The notes beneath the pieces were generated by a model. It was not told where the DNA came from. It saw only the letters and a list, made by a program, of their open reading frames with translations, and made no database searches. Shown one piece after another: positions 6,992 through 44,074 of a stretch of 64,000 nt of DNA. The translations under genes and the position numbers were made by a program. Where the stretch lies: contig JBDKTA010000043.1 of NCBI GenBank assembly GCA_039680605.1, positions 62,001 to 126,000 on the forward strand. Direction: 5' to 3'. The DNA comes from Planctomycetaceae bacterium. Its GTDB lineage: Bacteria; Planctomycetota; Phycisphaerae; SM23-33. How positions within the stretch are numbered: the first letter of the stretch is position 1; each line of letters opens with the position of its first letter.

Positions 6992-8309
6992 GGTCGCCCC
7001 CTCGCCGGCCAGCGCCCGCGCTGTCGAGCCCCGGCGCCCGCGTCCGGTCCTGCACCAGCTCCAGCCGCAACTGCCCGATGCGGCGTTTGCGCATGGAGAC
7101 GACGGTGAACTGCAGGTTGCGGAAGGTGACGGTCTCGCCCTCGTGGGGAATCCGCCCCATCAGCGACGTCACGAATCCGCCGATGGTGCTGATGTGCCTG
7201 CCGGAGAGATTCATCTTCAGCGCGTCGGCCAACTCATGCACCGGCAGATTGCCGTCCAGCACGTACGCCCCGTCGCGCTGAGGCTCCACGGCGGCCTCGT
7301 GCGCCGAGAAGGGGTCGGGCAGATCGCCGACGATTTCCTCCAGCACGTCCTGCAGCGTGATCAGCCCGGCGGTGCCGCCGTATTCGTCGACGACGATGGC
7401 CATCTGCATCTTGGTGACGCGAAACTGCAGCAGCACCCGTTCGAGGCGTGCGGCCTCGGGCACAAACGGCACGGGCGTGACGAGTTCCCGCAGAGGCGCC
7501 TGTGGGCGCAGCAGCAGCGTCTTGGCGTGGATCACGCCCAGGATGTTGTCGAGATTGTCGTCATAGACCGGCACCTTTCGCAGATGGGTTCCGGCCAGCA
7601 GGTCGGCAAGGGCGGCCCGCGGGGCGTTGATCTCGAAGGCGACCATGTCCACCCGGGGGACCATGACGTCGCGGGCGCGCAGGTCCGTCAACTCCATGAT
7701 CTCCTGCAGCAGCGAGTGCGCGTCGGTGTCGATGGCGCCGCGCTTGGCCGAAAGGTCCAGCACCGCCGCCAGCTCGTCGGAGGTGATCTCGCGCCGCTCG
7801 GGCGGTCCGCCGCCGGCCAGCAACCGCGTCAGCGGGTTGATCAGCCCCCGCTGGAGAATCCAGAGCACCGGATCGACCGCCCGCAGGAGCATTGCCGCCG
7901 GCCACGCGACCAGCCGTGCCACGCGCTGCGGGTGAGAGACCGCCAGCAGCTTGGGCAGCACCTCGGCCAACAGGATCAGCGCCAGTAGCGGACCTACCGT
8001 CACCAGCAACGCGGCCCAGGCGCCCACGTCGCTCTTGAGAATGTTCAGCGTCAATGCCGCCGCCACGGCCGCAAACGCCACGTTGACCAGCATGTTGCCC
8101 AGCAGCAGCGCCTGCAGGAGGATCGGCGGGCGTCGCAGCAGCGCTGCCGCCAGTCGCCCCGATCGCCCGCTGGCGCGAAGCTGCTGGACCTGCGCCGGCG
8201 AGAGACTGAACAGCGCCGTCTCGGACCCGCTGAAAAAGCCCGAGGCGCACAGCAGCAGAACCAACGTGATCAGGAATCCGGCGTGCTGGAGGAGAAAGCT
8301 GCCGTCCAC
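6981..8309 (-). CDS. CNNM/CorC family (hemolysin-like) ion transport protein
   Basis: 442 residues with the full family order: DUF21 membrane domain (SGFFSGSETALFSL at 24-37), CBS pair (VMVPRVDMVAFE near 208; MQMAIVVDEYGGTAG near 285, then DVLEEIVGDLPD) and a C-terminal CorC/HlyC domain (DGNLPVHEL, then GGFVTSLMGRIPHEGE). Family members mediate Mg2+/Co2+ or Na+-linked divalent cation efflux at the inner membrane. It is first in a two-gene operon with a shorter paralogue. The start codon at 8309 is followed by a clean membrane segment. Confidence 0.9.
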   Translation of the reverse strand: MDGSFLLQHAGFLITLVLLLCASGFFSGSETALFSLSPAQVQQLRASGRSGRLAAALLRRPPILLQALLLGNMLVNVAFAAVAAALTLNILKSDVGAWAALLVTVGPLLALILLAEVLPKLLAVSHPQRVARLVAWPAAMLLRAVDPVLWILQRGLINPLTRLLAGGGPPERREITSDELAAVLDLSAKRGAIDTDAHSLLQEIMELTDLRARDVMVPRVDMVAFEINAPRAALADLLAGTHLRKVPVYDDNLDNILGVIHAKTLLLRPQAPLRELVTPVPFVPEAARLERVLLQFRVTKMQMAIVVDEYGGTAGLITLQDVLEEIVGDLPDPFSAHEAAVEPQRDGAYVLDGNLPVHELADALKMNLSGRHISTIGGFVTSLMGRIPHEGETVTFRNLQFTVVSMRKRRIGQLRLELVQDRTRAPGLDSAGAGRRGGDHAG

Positions 8310-18156: not shown

Positions 18157-19443
18157 ATGACGTACCAAGATCTGCGCCACGAAATCGAATCCCTCCCCAG
18201 CATCAACGCCCACATCCACCAGGCCGATGTGGCGGCCGAATGGCCGGGGCAGTCGCCCGATCCAATAGCCCTGCTGCGAACGGCGCTGCCGGAGTCTTTC
18301 GCCGACCAGAGCGTGCTCGACGTGCTCAACGGCTCGGCGCCCCATCGCGACAAATGGAAGGCCCTGCTGGCGGTCTGGCCGCTGGTGCGGTGCAGCGGTT
18401 ACGGCCGCGTGGTTGCCGCGCGCCTGCGGGCCCTGGGCGTGGACGACAATCTGACCGAGACCTCGTATGACCAGATCGCTCAACGCCTCGTGCCGTACAC
18501 GCCCGCCGAGGCGGCCGCGGCGTTCGACGCCGTCGGCATCGGCGGATGGGTAAGCAATGTCGTCGGCCATCCGTGCTTTGGATGGGGCGACGGCATCGCG
18601 AAATTCCTGGCCGGCGAGCTGCCGCACGGCAAGAACTTCTTCCCGCTGCTCAACGCCGGGCCCCTGCACGATTTCAGTTCGATGGGCGAACTCGAGGCCG
18701 TCGAGCGCGCTGCCGGGGTGAGCATCGCCAGCCTGGACGACTTGACCGGCGCGGTGGGCAAGATCGTAGACGCCTGCGTGGCCAAAGGCGTTGTCGGCAT
18801 CAAGGACCATCGTGCCTATTCTCGCGGGCTGCTGTTCAAGGCGCCCGTGCGCTCGGCGGCGGCCGCCGAGTTTACCATCGTGCGGGCCAACGGATCGCTG
18901 GCCCCGCACCAGAGCCACCTGTCCGATTACGTTCTCGATGCGATTGTCTCCTGCGCCGGCGACCACAAGCTGCCCGTGGCCATGCACACGGGTCTCTGCG
19001 CCGGCCGCTACGGGCGCTGCGCCCAGCCGCAGAATAACGCGGCGCTGCTGGCGGGCCTGTTGGAGCGCCACGCGGATGTGCAGTTCGATCTGTATCATCT
19101 CAACATGCCCTGGAGCGAGGAGATGCTGGCGCTGATGCAGCGGTTTCCCAACGTGACGGCCAACTGCGTCTGGGCGCAGCACCTTGACGGGGCGGGCATG
19201 GAGGAGTTCCTGCTGCGGGCGCTGCAGGCTCTGCCGGCCGACCGCATTTTGGGCTACGGCAGCGACGGAGGCGGAATGGGTTATATCCTGGCGACGCTGG
19301 GCCTGGCCAAAGACGCCATCGCCGGCGCCCTGTCGCGACTGGTGGATCGCAACTTCATCAGCCGTTCTGCCGCGCTGGCCGTAGCGAGAATCTGGCTCTA
19401 CGAAGCCCCGTGCAAGATCTATAAGCTGCCCCTGCCCCAGTAG
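18157..19443 (+). CDS. amidohydrolase family protein
   Basis: 428 residues. Metal-site motifs of the amidohydrolase TIM barrel appear in order: NAHIHQADV (HxH) near residue 18, KDHRAYSRG (strand 4 Lys) near 215, VAMHTGLCAGRYG (strand 5 His) near 272, DLYHLNMPW (strand 6 His) near 310 and GYGSDGG (strand 8 Asp) near 367. It resembles the glucuronate isomerase/amidohydrolase_2 type, acting on uronate, lactone or other carboxylated substrates; the true substrate is unknown. Its Shine-Dalgarno overlaps the end of a family B palindrome. The stop codon merges with a small GCACGGGCGTCTCGCCCGTG palindrome. Confidence 0.8.
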   Translation: MTYQDLRHEIESLPSINAHIHQADVAAEWPGQSPDPIALLRTALPESFADQSVLDVLNGSAPHRDKWKALLAVWPLVRCSGYGRVVAARLRALGVDDNLTETSYDQIAQRLVPYTPAEAAAAFDAVGIGGWVSNVVGHPCFGWGDGIAKFLAGELPHGKNFFPLLNAGPLHDFSSMGELEAVERAAGVSIASLDDLTGAVGKIVDACVAKGVVGIKDHRAYSRGLLFKAPVRSAAAAEFTIVRANGSLAPHQSHLSDYVLDAIVSCAGDHKLPVAMHTGLCAGRYGRCAQPQNNAALLAGLLERHADVQFDLYHLNMPWSEEMLALMQRFPNVTANCVWAQHLDGAGMEEFLLRALQALPADRILGYGSDGGGMGYILATLGLAKDAIAGALSRLVDRNFISRSAALAVARIWLYEAPCKIYKLPLPQ

Positions 19444-19606
19444 CACGGGCGTCTCGCCCGTGGTTTCTTCACAGGCAAGTCTTAACGCGCTGGAAGGAGT
19501 CGTGGCTGTCGGGCTTGGCCCTCCCGCCACGGCACCCAAGCGCGGCGGCGCACTCAACGAATCCTGGTGCCGTGGCGCGGAGGGGCGAAGCCCCGTAGAG
19601 CCACGA
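19442..19606. repeat. family C palindrome followed by inverted pair of family P elements
   Basis: GCACGGGCGTCTCGCCCGTG at 19443-19462 is the same unit that is inserted in the GH95 gene at 39471. Two copies of family P (CGTGGCT...GGGC...GCCACGGCACC) lie at 19500-19538 and, inverted, at 19567-19606. Another P copy is at 30809-30849. Confidence 0.75.
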
Positions 19607-39346: not shown

Positions 39347-39376
39347 GGTGGCACAGCCTTTCCAGGCTGTGCCACC
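39347..39376. repeat. palindromic element, family D (copy 2)
   Basis: Near-perfect hairpin GGTGGCACAGCCT / AGGCTGTGCCACC with a 4-nt loop, between convergent genes. It could also act as a transcription stop, though no T-tract follows. Confidence 0.85.
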
Positions 39377-39383
39377 CGAGGTA

Positions 39384-41750
39384 TCAGTCCCGGCCGGGCG
39401 TCAGTTCATAGCTGGCGCCCGGCCGGGTGGGGAAGACGAAGCACCCGCGCGCGTCGGCAGCAAGCTGCACCATGGCACGGGCGTCCCGCCCGTGAGTAGC
39501 ATGGGCGTCTCGCCCATGCTCTTCCCCTGTGGCATGGGCGTCTCGCCCATGCTCCCCGGCGCAGGAAACCAGCACGGCCCGACCCGTGCCGAACGGATCG
39601 GCCAGCGTGCATGGCCCGCCCTTCTCGCTGACAATGCAGACTCGCTGCGTAGCCCCCTGGCACCGCCGGGCCGACACCAGGAACGCTCCGGTTGCGCGAA
39701 GGGCGGCGAATGACACATCGCCCCAGTTCGCAGGCACGGCTGGAAATACGCGAATCACACCATCGAGACTTTGCAGCAGCATCTCATTGACCGCGTTGGC
39801 CAGGGCGGTGGTAGCCTCGATCTGCATGACGCCGGAGGTCACGTCGCCGCTGCGGTAATGCGGCACCGATCGCAGCAGGTGCAGACCGTTCTCCAGCACC
39901 GTGCTATCGAGATAATCAGTGAGCAGCGCCGCTGCCTCGTCGCCCAGGCCCAGATGCGCCGCCGCGGCGGCGCACCAGGTCATCAGGTGGCCGGCGCCCT
40001 TGAACCGCGTCACAACCGCCCGATAGATTTCCTCAGCCGTCGCTCGCTGGGCGTCGCTGCTGCCCAGACCGACCTGGCCGCCCGGGTACAGCGGAGCCAT
40101 CGTGACGGGCATGGGCCTGCACGCGGCCCAGCGGTCGCCTTCGAGATCGAGCAGTCGCCCCTGCGCGTCGGTCGGACAGGGCGCCAGATGGTCGAGGATC
40201 GCGATCCATCGCCGGCGGTCCGCCTCGTCGACGCCCAGCACCTCGGCGGCCTCGACCAGCCCCTCGAAGAGGATGCGGACGAAGGCCAGGTCGCCGGTGG
40301 GGTTGCGGCCCCAGGCCATCATCAAATACCCGCGCGTGTCGGGCATCTCCGGGGCATAGCTGGGAAAAAGATTGTACGTGCCGGCCTCGTCCTTCTGCAG
40401 CAGGTCCTCGTAGAACAGGCTCAGTTCCTTCAGGAACGGGTATGCCTGGGCGAGGAACTCTTCGTCCCGCGAGTACAGCCAGTGCCAGCGGAAGCCCTGG
40501 GCGATCCACGCCCCGGCGCCCGGCCAAGCCCACGGGGCGGCCAGCTCGTGCCCGTGCGGGCCGGCGGCGATGGGATAGTACAGCCCGCGGCGGCGGAAGA
40601 ACTCTTTGGCCGCGCGGCGGGCTTCGTCGCGCATCTCGACGGCGAAGAGCCGGTAGTACGGCTCGGTCAGCTCCAGATGATTGGCCGCGTAGAGCGGCCA
40701 GAAGATCATCTGGGTGTTCATGTCCGTGTGGTAGTCGGTGTGCCACGTCGGACGGTTATACTTGTTCCAGATGCCCTGCAGGCCCGGCGCTTTGCGCCCG
40801 GGGCGGCTGCTGCAACCGAGCACGTACAGCCCGACGCGCCAGTGACGCTCGAGTCGGGCATCGGGCAGGGCGATGTTCGATCGGGACCAGAAATCGCCCC
40901 ACCAAGAGCGGTGAGTCTTGGCCAGTCGCTCCGGCGAGCGAATATCGTGACTCGCCAATCGATCACTCGCGGCTTCGCGCGTGGACTGCCCCGGCACGTC
41001 GAACGAACTGACCACCGTCGCCAGCAGCACAACCGGTCCGGTGCAGACATCGATGGCGAAGATCGCCTCGTCGCCGGCGAGCGACCACCCGCCGCGAGCC
41101 CCCAGCACGCGAACGGCCAAGGTGAACGTCACGCTGTTGGCGATGGTCATGTTCAATCCGGCGATGTCGCCGGCCTGCCAGGCGGTCGGCTGATCGTAGT
41201 CCAGGCTCTGCGGCCGCCAGAGGCGCAGCTTGCCCCAGAGCTTCCGCTCGTCGGGCGAGAGGGCAATAGTCACCGGGATCACGCCCTGCCGCGCCGGTAC
41301 GAACGTCTCGACGCTCAGGCTCTGCCTGCCCTCGCGATATTCCGTGCTGTCGCTGCTGACGCGGGCTGTGGCCGTCGCCAGATCCAGCTCCTGCGAAAAC
41401 TGCACCACGCGCTCGCCGGCCAGCAGCGACAGGTCCAGTTGCCCGCAAGAGATCATGCTCGGGCGCGAGCAGTTCTCGGCCGCCAGCCAATTCTTGAAGA
41501 TGCGGTTGTAGCTTTCAAAGTCCTCCCGCTGGGCGATGGCCACCATCTCATCGAACGTCAGCCCCTCCGGCAGCCCCTGCCCGGGCGCGACGCGATAATC
41601 CCACACGTCGGACTTGTTGAACGCCAGCGTCAGTTGCTCGGGGCCGCCGTAGAGCATCATGCCAATGTCGCCATTGCCCATGGGCAACCCCTCGACCCAC
41701 TGGGGCGTCGCGTGATCGAGGACGATCTTTGTTGTCTGCTCAGTGCTCAT
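39384..41750 (-). CDS. GH95-family (alpha-L-fucosidase type) glycoside hydrolase with in-frame repeat insertion
   Basis: 788 residues, close to the usual length. The N-terminal beta-domain opens with WVEGLPMGNGDIGMMLYGG, the family hallmark. The catalytic (alpha/alpha)6 barrel has GLQGIWNKYNRPTWHTDYH near 310 and DMNTQMIFWPLYAANHLEL, then AAPWAWPGAGAW and PSYAPEMPDTRG with the likely acid Glu. The first Asn of the family's catalytic Asn pair appears as Asp here. No signal peptide is seen. The last 110 residues contain an insertion, HGRDAHAT repeated, encoded by a palindromic element (39471-39554). The paralogue next door lacks it. Confidence 0.88.
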   Translation of the reverse strand: MSTEQTTKIVLDHATPQWVEGLPMGNGDIGMMLYGGPEQLTLAFNKSDVWDYRVAPGQGLPEGLTFDEMVAIAQREDFESYNRIFKNWLAAENCSRPSMISCGQLDLSLLAGERVVQFSQELDLATATARVSSDSTEYREGRQSLSVETFVPARQGVIPVTIALSPDERKLWGKLRLWRPQSLDYDQPTAWQAGDIAGLNMTIANSVTFTLAVRVLGARGGWSLAGDEAIFAIDVCTGPVVLLATVVSSFDVPGQSTREAASDRLASHDIRSPERLAKTHRSWWGDFWSRSNIALPDARLERHWRVGLYVLGCSSRPGRKAPGLQGIWNKYNRPTWHTDYHTDMNTQMIFWPLYAANHLELTEPYYRLFAVEMRDEARRAAKEFFRRRGLYYPIAAGPHGHELAAPWAWPGAGAWIAQGFRWHWLYSRDEEFLAQAYPFLKELSLFYEDLLQKDEAGTYNLFPSYAPEMPDTRGYLMMAWGRNPTGDLAFVRILFEGLVEAAEVLGVDEADRRRWIAILDHLAPCPTDAQGRLLDLEGDRWAACRPMPVTMAPLYPGGQVGLGSSDAQRATAEEIYRAVVTRFKGAGHLMTWCAAAAAHLGLGDEAAALLTDYLDSTVLENGLHLLRSVPHYRSGDVTSGVMQIEATTALANAVNEMLLQSLDGVIRVFPAVPANWGDVSFAALRATGAFLVSARRCQGATQRVCIVSEKGGPCTLADPFGTGRAVLVSCAGEHGRDAHATGEEHGRDAHATHGRDARAMVQLAADARGCFVFPTRPGASYELTPGRD
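39471..39554. repeat. family C palindromes inserted in frame inside GH95 gene
   Basis: Three tandem units of CATGGGCGTCTCGCCCATG type (the first CACGGGCGTCCCGCCCGTG), 84 nt in all, equal to 28 codons. On the coding strand they read HGRDAHAT, EHGRDAHAT and HGRDARA. The same unit stands alone at 19443-19462. Confidence 0.85.
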
Positions 41751-41830: not shown

Positions 41831-44074
41831 TCATTTGGAGCCCCCGGAGGGGGTGACTGAATACGATTGCCCGGATTGCGTCTCGAATCGGAAACAGCCG
41901 TCTGCGTCGGTCGTCAACTCCACATTCTTTCCGGAGGAAGACAGCACCGCCCGGCCAGCGCCGAACGGATCGGCCACGACGCACAGACCGCCCTTCTCGC
42001 TGTCGATGCGAACCCGCGTGGTCTTGCCGCTCTCGCGCTGGGCCGAGACCAGGAACGCTCCCACCGCGCGCAGCGTCTGGAACGATGCGTCCTTCCAGCT
42101 CTCCGGCACGGCCGGGAACACGCGGATGACGCCCTTGAGGCTCTGCAGCAGCAGGTGCGCCACAGCCGCGGCCGTGCCGTAGCAGGGGTCCAACTGCATC
42201 ATGTCATTCATGCCGTTATCGCGGCGGTGGTCGGTGCACTTGTGGATCGAGGCGACGGCATCGCCACCCTTGCCCAGTTGGGCGGCCGCACACGCCAGCC
42301 AGATCGAGCAGTGGTTTCCGCCGTCGTAGTGCCCGCGGATGCGCTTGAACGTGTTCCACGCCACCTGTTGCACCGATGGCGGGCTGGCGACGTCGACCTC
42401 GGCCGCCGGCCAGAGCGGACCGATCCGCGGGATCGACGGCTCAAGCACGAGGTATTCCTCATTCTCGACATCGAGCCAGTACCCCAGCTTTTCGGGATAC
42501 GGCGGCAGATGTTCGAGTATCTCGCTCCAGCGGGTGCGGTCGCCCTCGTCCACGCCGAGCACGCGCGAGCTTTCGATCAAGGCCGTCAGCAGCACGCGCA
42601 GCATCGCCAAATCCATCGTGACGTTCTTGCCCCAGCACATCATCAGCCACGCGCGCCAGTCGATCATCTCCGGCGAAAACGACGGGCCCAGATCGTACAG
42701 GCCGCGGTCGTTCTTGCTCAGGAAGCCTTCGTAGAACAGGCTCAGTTCCTTCAGGAATGGATACGCCCATCGCAAGAACTCGGTGTCCTGGCTGTACAGA
42801 TAATGCCACCAGAAGTACTGGGCGACCCACGCCCCCGCGCCCGGCCAGGCCCACGGCGCCGCCAGCTCGTGCCCGTGCGGGCCTCCGGCCATCGGGATGT
42901 ACAGCCCGCGGCGGTTGAAATATTCCTTGGCCGCCCGCCGCGTTTCGTCGCGCATCTCGACGGCGTAAAGGCGGTATAGCGGTTCGAGCAGCTCCAGATG
43001 ATTGTTGGTGTACGCGCACTGGTGCAGGATCTCGACGTTGCCATCGGCGTGGTAGTCGGTATGCCAGGCGGGGCGATTGTACAGATTCCAGATCCCCTGC
43101 AGCCCCGGGGCCTGGCAGCCCGGCTGGCTGCTCGACCCGAAAAGGTACATCCCCCACCGCCAGCCCTTCTGCAGCGCCGCGTCCGGCACGTTCACGCTCG
43201 AGGCCGACCAGAACTTCTGCCACCACGCGCGATGTGGGTCTTCCAGTTCCGCCGGCGCATCGGGCGTAAGACCGCACAAGCGCGCGACGGCCGCCGAACG
43301 GGTGTCGTGATCGTCACGCGACGTGACGATCGTCACCAGCAGCACGAGCTTGCCCAGCTCCGGCGCGATCGTCAGCACCGCCTCGCTGGCCGAGGCCTCC
43401 CACGAGCACCGCCCGCCGACGACGCGCACGGCCAATGTGTAGTCGATGCTCTCCGGGATCGACACGTCGATGCCGGCGATGTCACCATCGACCCACGCGC
43501 TGCCGCCGGGGCAGTCCAGCGACTGCTGCCTCCACAGCCGCGCCTTGCCGAAGAGTTTCTTGTCAGGCACGTTGTAGATCGTGACGGGAATGACCTTGTC
43601 GCGAGCGGGCACGAACGTCTCGATGGTGAAAGCCTGCTTGTGCTCGCGATACTCGCTGCACGGGCAATGCACCCGCGCCATCGCGGTCTCCAGGTCCAAC
43701 TCCTGGCGAAAGCCCAGTGACCGCTCGCCCGGCAGCAGGTTCAGGTCAAGCTGCCCGCACGGCTGAAGCGAAGGCCCCGACGAGTTCTCGCGCTCGAGCC
43801 AGTCCTTATAGATGGTGTCGCACCAGGCCCAGTCGCCAGCCCCTGCGCGTTTGACGAGCTCGTTAAACGTCGTCTTGTCTTCCGGCAGGCCCTGCCCCGG
43901 ACTGATTCGATAATCCCAGACCGTGGACTTGTTGAACCCCAGCGTCACCTGCTGCGGCGAGCCATGGACGACAACGCCCATGTCGCCATTGCCCAGCGGC
44001 AGCCCCTCCACCCACTTCGGCGTGGGGTGATCGAGAACGATTCGTGTTTCGCCCGTGGGATCCGTCCTGCTCAT
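41831..44074 (-). CDS. GH95-family glycoside hydrolase, tandem paralogue
   Basis: 747 residues, clearly homologous along its length to the upstream-numbered neighbour: WVEGLPLGNGDMGVVVHGS, GLQGIWNLYNRPAWHTDYH, DGNVEILHQCAYTNNHLEL, AAPWAWPGAGAW and PSFSPEMIDWRAWLMM. The Asn-pair position reads ADGN, again without the first Asn. The C-terminal beta-domain is uninterrupted (DPFGAGRAVLSSSGKNVEL). Transcribed before the 788-residue copy, about 80 nt apart, so the two form an operon for fucose- or galactose-type side chains. Exact linkage is unknown. Confidence 0.88.
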   Translation of the reverse strand: MSRTDPTGETRIVLDHPTPKWVEGLPLGNGDMGVVVHGSPQQVTLGFNKSTVWDYRISPGQGLPEDKTTFNELVKRAGAGDWAWCDTIYKDWLERENSSGPSLQPCGQLDLNLLPGERSLGFRQELDLETAMARVHCPCSEYREHKQAFTIETFVPARDKVIPVTIYNVPDKKLFGKARLWRQQSLDCPGGSAWVDGDIAGIDVSIPESIDYTLAVRVVGGRCSWEASASEAVLTIAPELGKLVLLVTIVTSRDDHDTRSAAVARLCGLTPDAPAELEDPHRAWWQKFWSASSVNVPDAALQKGWRWGMYLFGSSSQPGCQAPGLQGIWNLYNRPAWHTDYHADGNVEILHQCAYTNNHLELLEPLYRLYAVEMRDETRRAAKEYFNRRGLYIPMAGGPHGHELAAPWAWPGAGAWVAQYFWWHYLYSQDTEFLRWAYPFLKELSLFYEGFLSKNDRGLYDLGPSFSPEMIDWRAWLMMCWGKNVTMDLAMLRVLLTALIESSRVLGVDEGDRTRWSEILEHLPPYPEKLGYWLDVENEEYLVLEPSIPRIGPLWPAAEVDVASPPSVQQVAWNTFKRIRGHYDGGNHCSIWLACAAAQLGKGGDAVASIHKCTDHRRDNGMNDMMQLDPCYGTAAAVAHLLLQSLKGVIRVFPAVPESWKDASFQTLRAVGAFLVSAQRESGKTTRVRIDSEKGGLCVVADPFGAGRAVLSSSGKNVELTTDADGCFRFETQSGQSYSVTPSGGSK

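Follow-up and report, generated by a model that had tools for sequence, protein, structure and literature searches.

REPs inserted in frame in a GH95 gene of a planctomycete, and a candidate REP transposase lineage embedded in frame in housekeeping enzymes

The window analysed here, a 64,000-nt stretch of DNA from a Planctomycetaceae bacterium, contains a gene for a GH95-type glycoside hydrolase whose C-terminal domain is interrupted by three short palindromes. It is quite likely that this insert is an in-frame trimer of a GTAG-class REP, that the best candidate for its mover is a RAYT (REP-associated tyrosine transposase) which itself lies in frame in etfB, and that the lineage of this RAYT commonly resides in this way. 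Comparison of sequences is sufficient to establish the anatomy and copy number of the REP, the insertion relative to homologues, the presence of the element in frame in several genes and a RAYT with the same REPs in etfB, as well as the same RAYT arrangement, with conserved catalytic residues, in many other genomes. The features of the GH95 locus are:

39384-41750, minus strand: GH95-type glycoside hydrolase, 788 aa (Pfam PF22124 and PF21307), with the insert in its C-terminal domain
39474-39554, minus strand: inserted segment, 81 nt or 27 codons net, residues 733-759, lacking in five homologues
39472-39494, plus strand: REP unit 1, tag ATGG followed by CACGGGCGTCCCGCCCGTG, core at 39476-39494
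39496-39518, plus strand: REP unit 2, tag GTAG followed by CATGGGCGTCTCGCCCATG, core at 39500-39518
39529-39551, plus strand: REP unit 3, tag GTGG followed by CATGGGCGTCTCGCCCATG, core at 39533-39551
41831-44074, minus strand: tandem GH95 paralogue, 747 aa, with no interruption at the site

Both tandem proteins, which share 55% identity, were assigned to GH95 by Pfam (PF22124 matches the 788-aa protein at 8.5e-53). On the minus strand the three palindromes are translated as EHGRDAHATGEEHGRDAHATHGRDARA, and an earlier note on this DNA had correctly described HGRDAHAT-type repeats encoded by palindromes in this ORF. The sequence around the insert reads GRAVLVSCAGEHGRDAHATGEEHGRDAHATHGRDARAMVQLAADARGCF, and the paralogue, as had also been noted, runs without interruption through the corresponding place (GRAVLSSSGKNVELTTDADGCF). 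The three units are indeed in frame, but the length given for them, 84 nt or 28 codons, has to be corrected: the net excess over the paralogue is 81 nt (27 codons), its boundaries being uncertain by one or two codons. PF21307, the Pfam profile for the C-terminal domain of GH95, is matched over 94 of its 94 positions in the paralogue but only over positions 1-58 of 94 in the 788-aa protein, where the match ends immediately ahead of the insert. By sequence comparison, neither the paralogue nor four GH95 homologues in other genomes of the class (L048-L051) contain the 27-residue segment. No protein closer than the tandem paralogue was found among 100 genomes searched, and a homologue search of the named genomes found no relatives of the GH95 protein. 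Since five homologues are without the segment and the family profile breaks there, the comparison identifies it as an insertion in one GH95 gene rather than an old feature. An AlphaFold model of the GH95 pair is poor (mean pLDDT 37) and suggests coil for residues 732-757, with strands at 724-730 and 760-764 on either side.

The trimer is arranged head to tail, with spacings of 24 nt between units 1 and 2 and 33 nt between units 2 and 3, and is not a REPIN. The linker of the 24-nt dimer, AGTAG/AGTGG, recurs at two unrelated loci (L054:862 and L066:17011). As both spacings and this linker also occur at unrelated loci, the GH95 block resembles blocks circulating in the genome. Close by, a perfect palindrome (GGTGGCACAGCCTTTCCAGGCTGTGCCACC, window 39347-39376) lies between convergent ORFs; it has one exact copy genome-wide and is probably a terminator.

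In the 5.23-Mb genome the palindrome was found 403 times (204 + 199 matches) and the reversed-pattern control 0 times, which excludes a chance origin. Details were sampled from 463 kb of the genome, containing 98 copies in 39 clusters. The unit is 23 nt long and the GH95 trimer spans about 80 nt. The 5' tetranucleotide is GTGG in 57 and GTAG in 25 of the sampled copies, GT coming first in 96 of the 98, and the stems show compensatory variants (CATGGGC/GCCCATG, CACGGGC/GCCCGTG and CGCGGGC/GCCCGCG). Inverted neighbours have their tags outward ('+-') in 14 of 14 cases, as in REPINs, and a spacing of 33 nt is dominant among direct neighbours (22 of 45). On the basis of the GTRG tags, compensatory stems, outward-tag inverted pairs and 33-nt direct spacing, the palindrome belongs to the GTAG class of REPs defined in PMC3733652. 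It agrees with that class in consisting of a palindrome within 20-40 nt that carries an unpaired tetranucleotide of GTAG type at one end, in being dispersed, high in copy number and mainly extragenic (30 of the 39 clusters do not have coding sequence to both sides in the same strand), and in flanking a RAYT gene (L040, see below). Its distribution among 150 relatives is patchy, with 0 to 503 copies per genome and controls near zero. A free-standing copy lies in the window beside a gene:

18157-19443, plus strand: amidohydrolase-like ORF (PF04909), ending on the REP tag
19440-19462, plus strand: free-standing REP, tag GTAG followed by CACGGGCGTCTCGCCCGTG, core at 19444-19462

The existence of this copy had been recognized before, at 19443-19462; its core starts one nucleotide later, at 19444, and together with the tag it extends from 19440. 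The GTAG tag supplies the stop codon (TAG, 19441-19443) of the ORF.

Two candidate properties of the element were rejected. REPs seemed to be built open in all six frames (57 of 57 GTGG copies, with GTAG copies open in five frames), but so are 46% of random 23-mers from the window, leaving at most a weak effect. The guide rule of PMC8266576, by which GTAG goes with CT and GTGG with CC, was not matched, CT being found after 43 of the 57 GTGG copies versus 6 of the 25 GTAG copies; this is probably a matter of subfamily structure. A separate observation is an array of eight REPs with a 33-nt period (L063:8442-8768; G000:C9, about 148442-148768), flanked on the same strand by coding stretches in different frames, so that it is either intergenic or has broken a gene.

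As judged from the sequences, the GH95 insert is one among at least nine in-frame REP insertions. A coding-potential test scored nine of the 39 sampled clusters as inside an ORF and in frame, or eight after removal by hand of pyruvate kinase (L065:11601), in which the supposed REP is native sequence (VMLSGETAVGR). The eight hosts are etfB and the genes for KsgA, a DUF4129 protein, a GH3 enzyme, a Ser/Thr kinase, a GT9 glycosyltransferase, a DUF255 protein and an ABC transporter; the domain profiles of KsgA and of the kinase are each split in two by the insert. The reading frames used across the insertions differ (HGRDAHAT, MGETPMP and MGVSPM). In a separate classification, restricted to clusters directly bordered by coding sequence at both ends and again omitting pyruvate kinase, a single open frame was retained in 7 of 8, as compared with an expectation of one third (binomial p about 0.003). 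The comparison with homologues and the presence of the same units in frame in other genes thus favour the proposal of the earlier note that these elements move or expand into genes, and the 7 of 8 clusters remaining in a single open frame agree with its suggestion that they are tolerated when the frame is kept. In the Ser/Thr kinase gene (L059:11474-13066), REP pairs lie in frame between the DFGLAK and APE motifs, i.e. in the activation segment. In most of the intragenic clusters (L053-L072 and window 39472-39551), the majority of the REP tags are on the strand opposite the gene.

That earlier reading had missed the likely mover, a RAYT that lies within etfB. The genome (G000) contains 16 loci with an IS200-like (Y1) transposase domain, and only L040 is flanked by this REP; two copies lie to one side and three, oppositely oriented, to the other:

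L040:847-2472 (G000:C4:18785-20410), minus strand: REPs-RAYT-REPs unit inside etfB, in one 542-aa open frame

The frame consists of the N-terminal 108 residues of EtfB, a REP peptide, the RAYT, a second REP peptide and the remainder of EtfB. It matches both the ETF and the Y1_Tnp profiles, EtfB being split at residue 108, and the part between the EtfB halves scores 73 bits with REP_Tyr_transpos (NF047646; cut-off 80). The RAYT is thus not a stand-alone gene, having EtfB on both sides. By way of control, the other 15 Y1 loci lie in open frames of 96-262 codons, as compared with the 545-codon frame at L040. In 17 relatives etfB is uninterrupted, most of them at 62-72% identity, and the only other etfB-like gene detected in this genome is a 46% paralogue without insert. 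The translation places etfA directly after the interrupted gene. The HUH motif of this RAYT is intact, and the tyrosine column is filled in all copies listed. Because it is the only one of the 16 Y1_Tnp loci flanked by these REPs, the RAYT at G000:C4:18785-20410 is probably the best candidate for their mover.

A search of the 150 relatives with this RAYT gave homologues in 39 genomes, the closest being mostly in open frames of 900 to 1480 codons in which a host enzyme can be read on both sides. In the named genomes the search gave 80 loci, of which about 52 are embedded in frame, as counted by reading and by clustering of the flanks; a few are cut by a contig end. The hosts are:

ValS, 18 cases: one common site in L106, L107, L109, L112, L122, L125, L138, L142, L144, L146, L152, L153 and others
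Restriction-modification and other DNA methylase genes, about 12 cases
LeuS, 4 cases: L145, L147, L164 and L183
MetH, 4 cases
MenF, 3 cases: L115, L120 and L123
DinG-type helicase, 3 cases
DUF5107 proteins, 3 cases
AlaS, 2 cases: L169 and L174
Single cases: IspG (L156), Sua5 (L149) and a FabA-like protein (L177)

ValS, LeuS, AlaS, MetH, IspG, MenF, Sua5, the DinG-type helicase, the FabA-like protein and EtfB were confirmed as hosts by Pfam or NCBIfam, and the remaining names, including the DNA methylases, were given by eye from the sequence. DNA methylase genes, including those of restriction-modification, are a frequent host class by this reading (L092-L095, L113, L127, L133, L135, L139, L150, L151, L157, L159, L167, L075, L091, L098, L099 and L108). 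Two inverted matches to the Acido-Lenti-1 RNA family (L156:7114-7159 and 7268-7313) lie downstream of the gene for the IspG-RAYT fusion, which belongs to a genome of the Verrucomicrobiales.

The common ValS site, found in many Phycisphaerae-type genomes, is between YLRYPL and TVATTRPET; in L087 (G006) the RAYT is at a second ValS site. At the start of the editing domain, 286 residues of L112 take the place of 5 in Thermus ValRS (1gax). In a model of the ValS fragment with its insert, built from 14 sequences (mean pLDDT 55), blocks of the RAYT core (residues 241-385) are predicted at about 63-82 and most of the editing domain at 70-88, with the flanking REP-encoded stretches below 50, a pattern to be expected for a folded RAYT domain on loose linkers. 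The HUH motif is kept in 53 of the 53 embedded RAYTs examined, and NF047646 scores are 73-84 bits (cut-off 80). The host parts of the ValS, LeuS, MetH and IspG fusions pass NCBIfam equivalog cut-offs. In G015, G020 and G038 (90-96% complete) no ValS other than the RAYT-bearing one was found; ValS is continuous across the site (one match) in our own genome, G005, G010, G014 and G017. Since the cultured isolate Roseibacillus persicicus KCTC 12988 also has such a fusion, in the only MetH found in its genome (L181:2598-6137), errors of metagenome assembly are not the explanation. Nothing able to remove the RAYT insert was found, as Pfam scans of ten fusions gave no intein family and eight loci searched with Rfam at gathering cut-offs gave no group I or II intron.

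In favour of the RAYT as disperser of the REPs, genomes in which the embedded RAYT has this REP at its flanks contain more copies of it than genomes in which a related RAYT lacks such flanks (p 0.004). In the RAYT tree, 17 of the 18 ValS-embedded copies group together (SH-aLRT 92), and a single clade of all 18 is not rejected (p-AU 0.725). RAYT distances correlate only weakly with those of the ValS flanks (0.15-0.38, versus 0.56-0.75 between the flanks). Since the ValS-embedded RAYTs group together and yet their distances follow ValS weakly, vertical descent and homing are both possible.

Several other explanations have to be weighed. It is scarcely credible that the 27 residues are an old feature of a GH95 subfamily resembling the repeat by coincidence: a segment of this kind was looked for and was present in neither the paralogue nor L048-L051, the Pfam GH95_C profile is interrupted exactly there, and no point in its support was found. 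Slippage or recombination acting in place on a chance palindrome, with no mobile element, is very improbable as the source of the repeats. Local amplification after a first arrival is plausible, units 2 and 3 being head to tail at the 33-nt spacing of tandem arrays elsewhere, but the 19-nt core with its GTRG tag occurs about 400 times genome-wide and the dimer linker AGTAG/AGTGG is common to the unrelated loci L054:862 and L066:17011. The copy number and the shared linker indicate that the repeat sequence came from elsewhere in the genome, and an origin in place of the unit itself is already refuted.

The interrupted genes might also be dead, the GH95 copy and the RAYT-bearing enzymes being pseudogenes that have not yet acquired stops. 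This reading is improbable. The GH95 copy, with an intact paralogue next to it, could be dispensable, but in G015, G020 and G038 the sole detected ValS bears the RAYT, and in R. persicicus the same is true of MetH; equivalog cut-offs are passed by the host parts (ValS, LeuS, MetH and IspG), and the frame is open across 900 to 1480 codons in many independent genomes. Only slightly less improbable is a domesticated RAYT domain that serves the host enzyme, e.g. in DNA or RNA binding, and is no parasite. Long residence at one site would fit the grouping of 17 of the 18 ValS-embedded RAYTs (SH-aLRT 92; p-AU 0.725 for one clade), but the host enzymes are functionally unrelated, the insert is patchy within a single family (ValS is continuous in our own genome, G005, G010, G014 and G017) and REP copies are spread in the same genomes.

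We therefore return to the reading of the GH95 insert as a REP trimer, for which the following course may be proposed. REPs of this family would be dispersed as single-stranded hairpins by the REP-associated tyrosine (HUH, Y1) transposase, and insertions into genes would persist where length and frame permit. One head-to-tail trimer would have entered a loop in the C-terminal domain of one of two tandem GH95 paralogues and survived there, its net length being a multiple of three with no stop in the frame used; the GH95 enzyme presumably still works. The RAYT unit would spread, or be inherited, in the same way as the REPs, and its lineage would live as a translated, unspliced domain in housekeeping enzymes, with the REP peptides as flexible linkers, the fusions being made whole and functional. 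Certain observations stand against this account. Any of the 15 other Y1_Tnp loci in the genome might act on these REPs, and no close homologue of this RAYT was found in the REP-rich genomes G122 and G035. Units 2 and 3 could have come from tandem amplification of a unit already present, and the predicted loop placement of the GH95 insert is weak, as it comes from a poor model (mean pLDDT 37). For the wider proposal we have a modest preference: that this RAYT lineage, in Planctomycetota, Verrucomicrobiota and other phyla, consists of translated, unspliced, in-frame domains in single-copy housekeeping enzymes (ValS, LeuS, AlaS, MetH, IspG, EtfB and others), intein-like but without splicing, whose REP progeny act as stop-free linkers and seed insertions like that in GH95 across the proteome.

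Lists of intragenic REPs have existed for years, but with no view of their mode of arrival or of the reason for their tolerance. Here one genome presents together the element, the enzymes in which it has inserted in frame and the transposase that probably moves it. The transposase appears to use the same in-frame trick at a larger scale, in enzymes that are hard to lose and in which a frameshift or a deletion would come at a high cost. Many bacteria would have a transposase domain in essential enzymes if the fusions are translated in full. This would bear on annotation, in which long 'fusion' proteins are thrown out as errors, on the evolution of proteins through insertions and on the long persistence of single-copy REP/RAYT systems. 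In-frame REP insertion as such is already known, both from PMC3733652 and from the Rickettsia palindromic elements (RPE; PMC10969869). The new part is a transposase living in frame inside housekeeping enzymes, of which we found no description in the open-licence PMC literature, and the claim of novelty is provisional.

Among known systems, RPEs are about 150 bp long and occur in frame in many unrelated protein genes (PMC10969869). The present elements are like them in being palindromic repeats lying in frame in protein genes and apparently tolerated, but the unit is far shorter (23 nt), the host is a planctomycete and not Rickettsia, and a candidate transposase can be named. The fusions share with inteins and IStrons (PMC4227781) the presence of a mobile element within conserved genes that are not abolished by it, and differ from both in containing neither an intein domain (Pfam) nor a group I or II intron (Rfam). 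The closest counterparts of the palindromes are the GTAG-tagged REPs, whose tags give stop codons to neighbouring ORFs and some copies of which lie inside ORFs (Di Nocera, De Gregorio and Rocco 2013, PMC3733652). The two have in common a short, GTRG-tagged palindrome of high copy number, a mostly extragenic location, dimers, stop-giving tags, intragenic copies and a REP-flanked RAYT elsewhere in the genome; the available part of that paper neither names the present REP family nor describes a RAYT gene that is itself in frame in a housekeeping gene. In single-stranded DNA, known RAYTs bind the hairpin together with its GTAG tag and cut nearby (PMC8266576), and a survey of the superfamily discarded unexpectedly long proteins as fusions or annotation errors (PMC6006769). 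With the REPtrons and TnpAREP of E. coli, Stenotrophomonas and Marinomonas (PMC8266576, PMC6006769; structure 4er8), the RAYT described here shares the HUH and tyrosine motifs, flanking REPs with a GTAG-type guide sequence and the NCBIfam family REP_Tyr_transpos, but whereas the known REPtrons are free-standing genes, this RAYT is embedded in the frame of its host.
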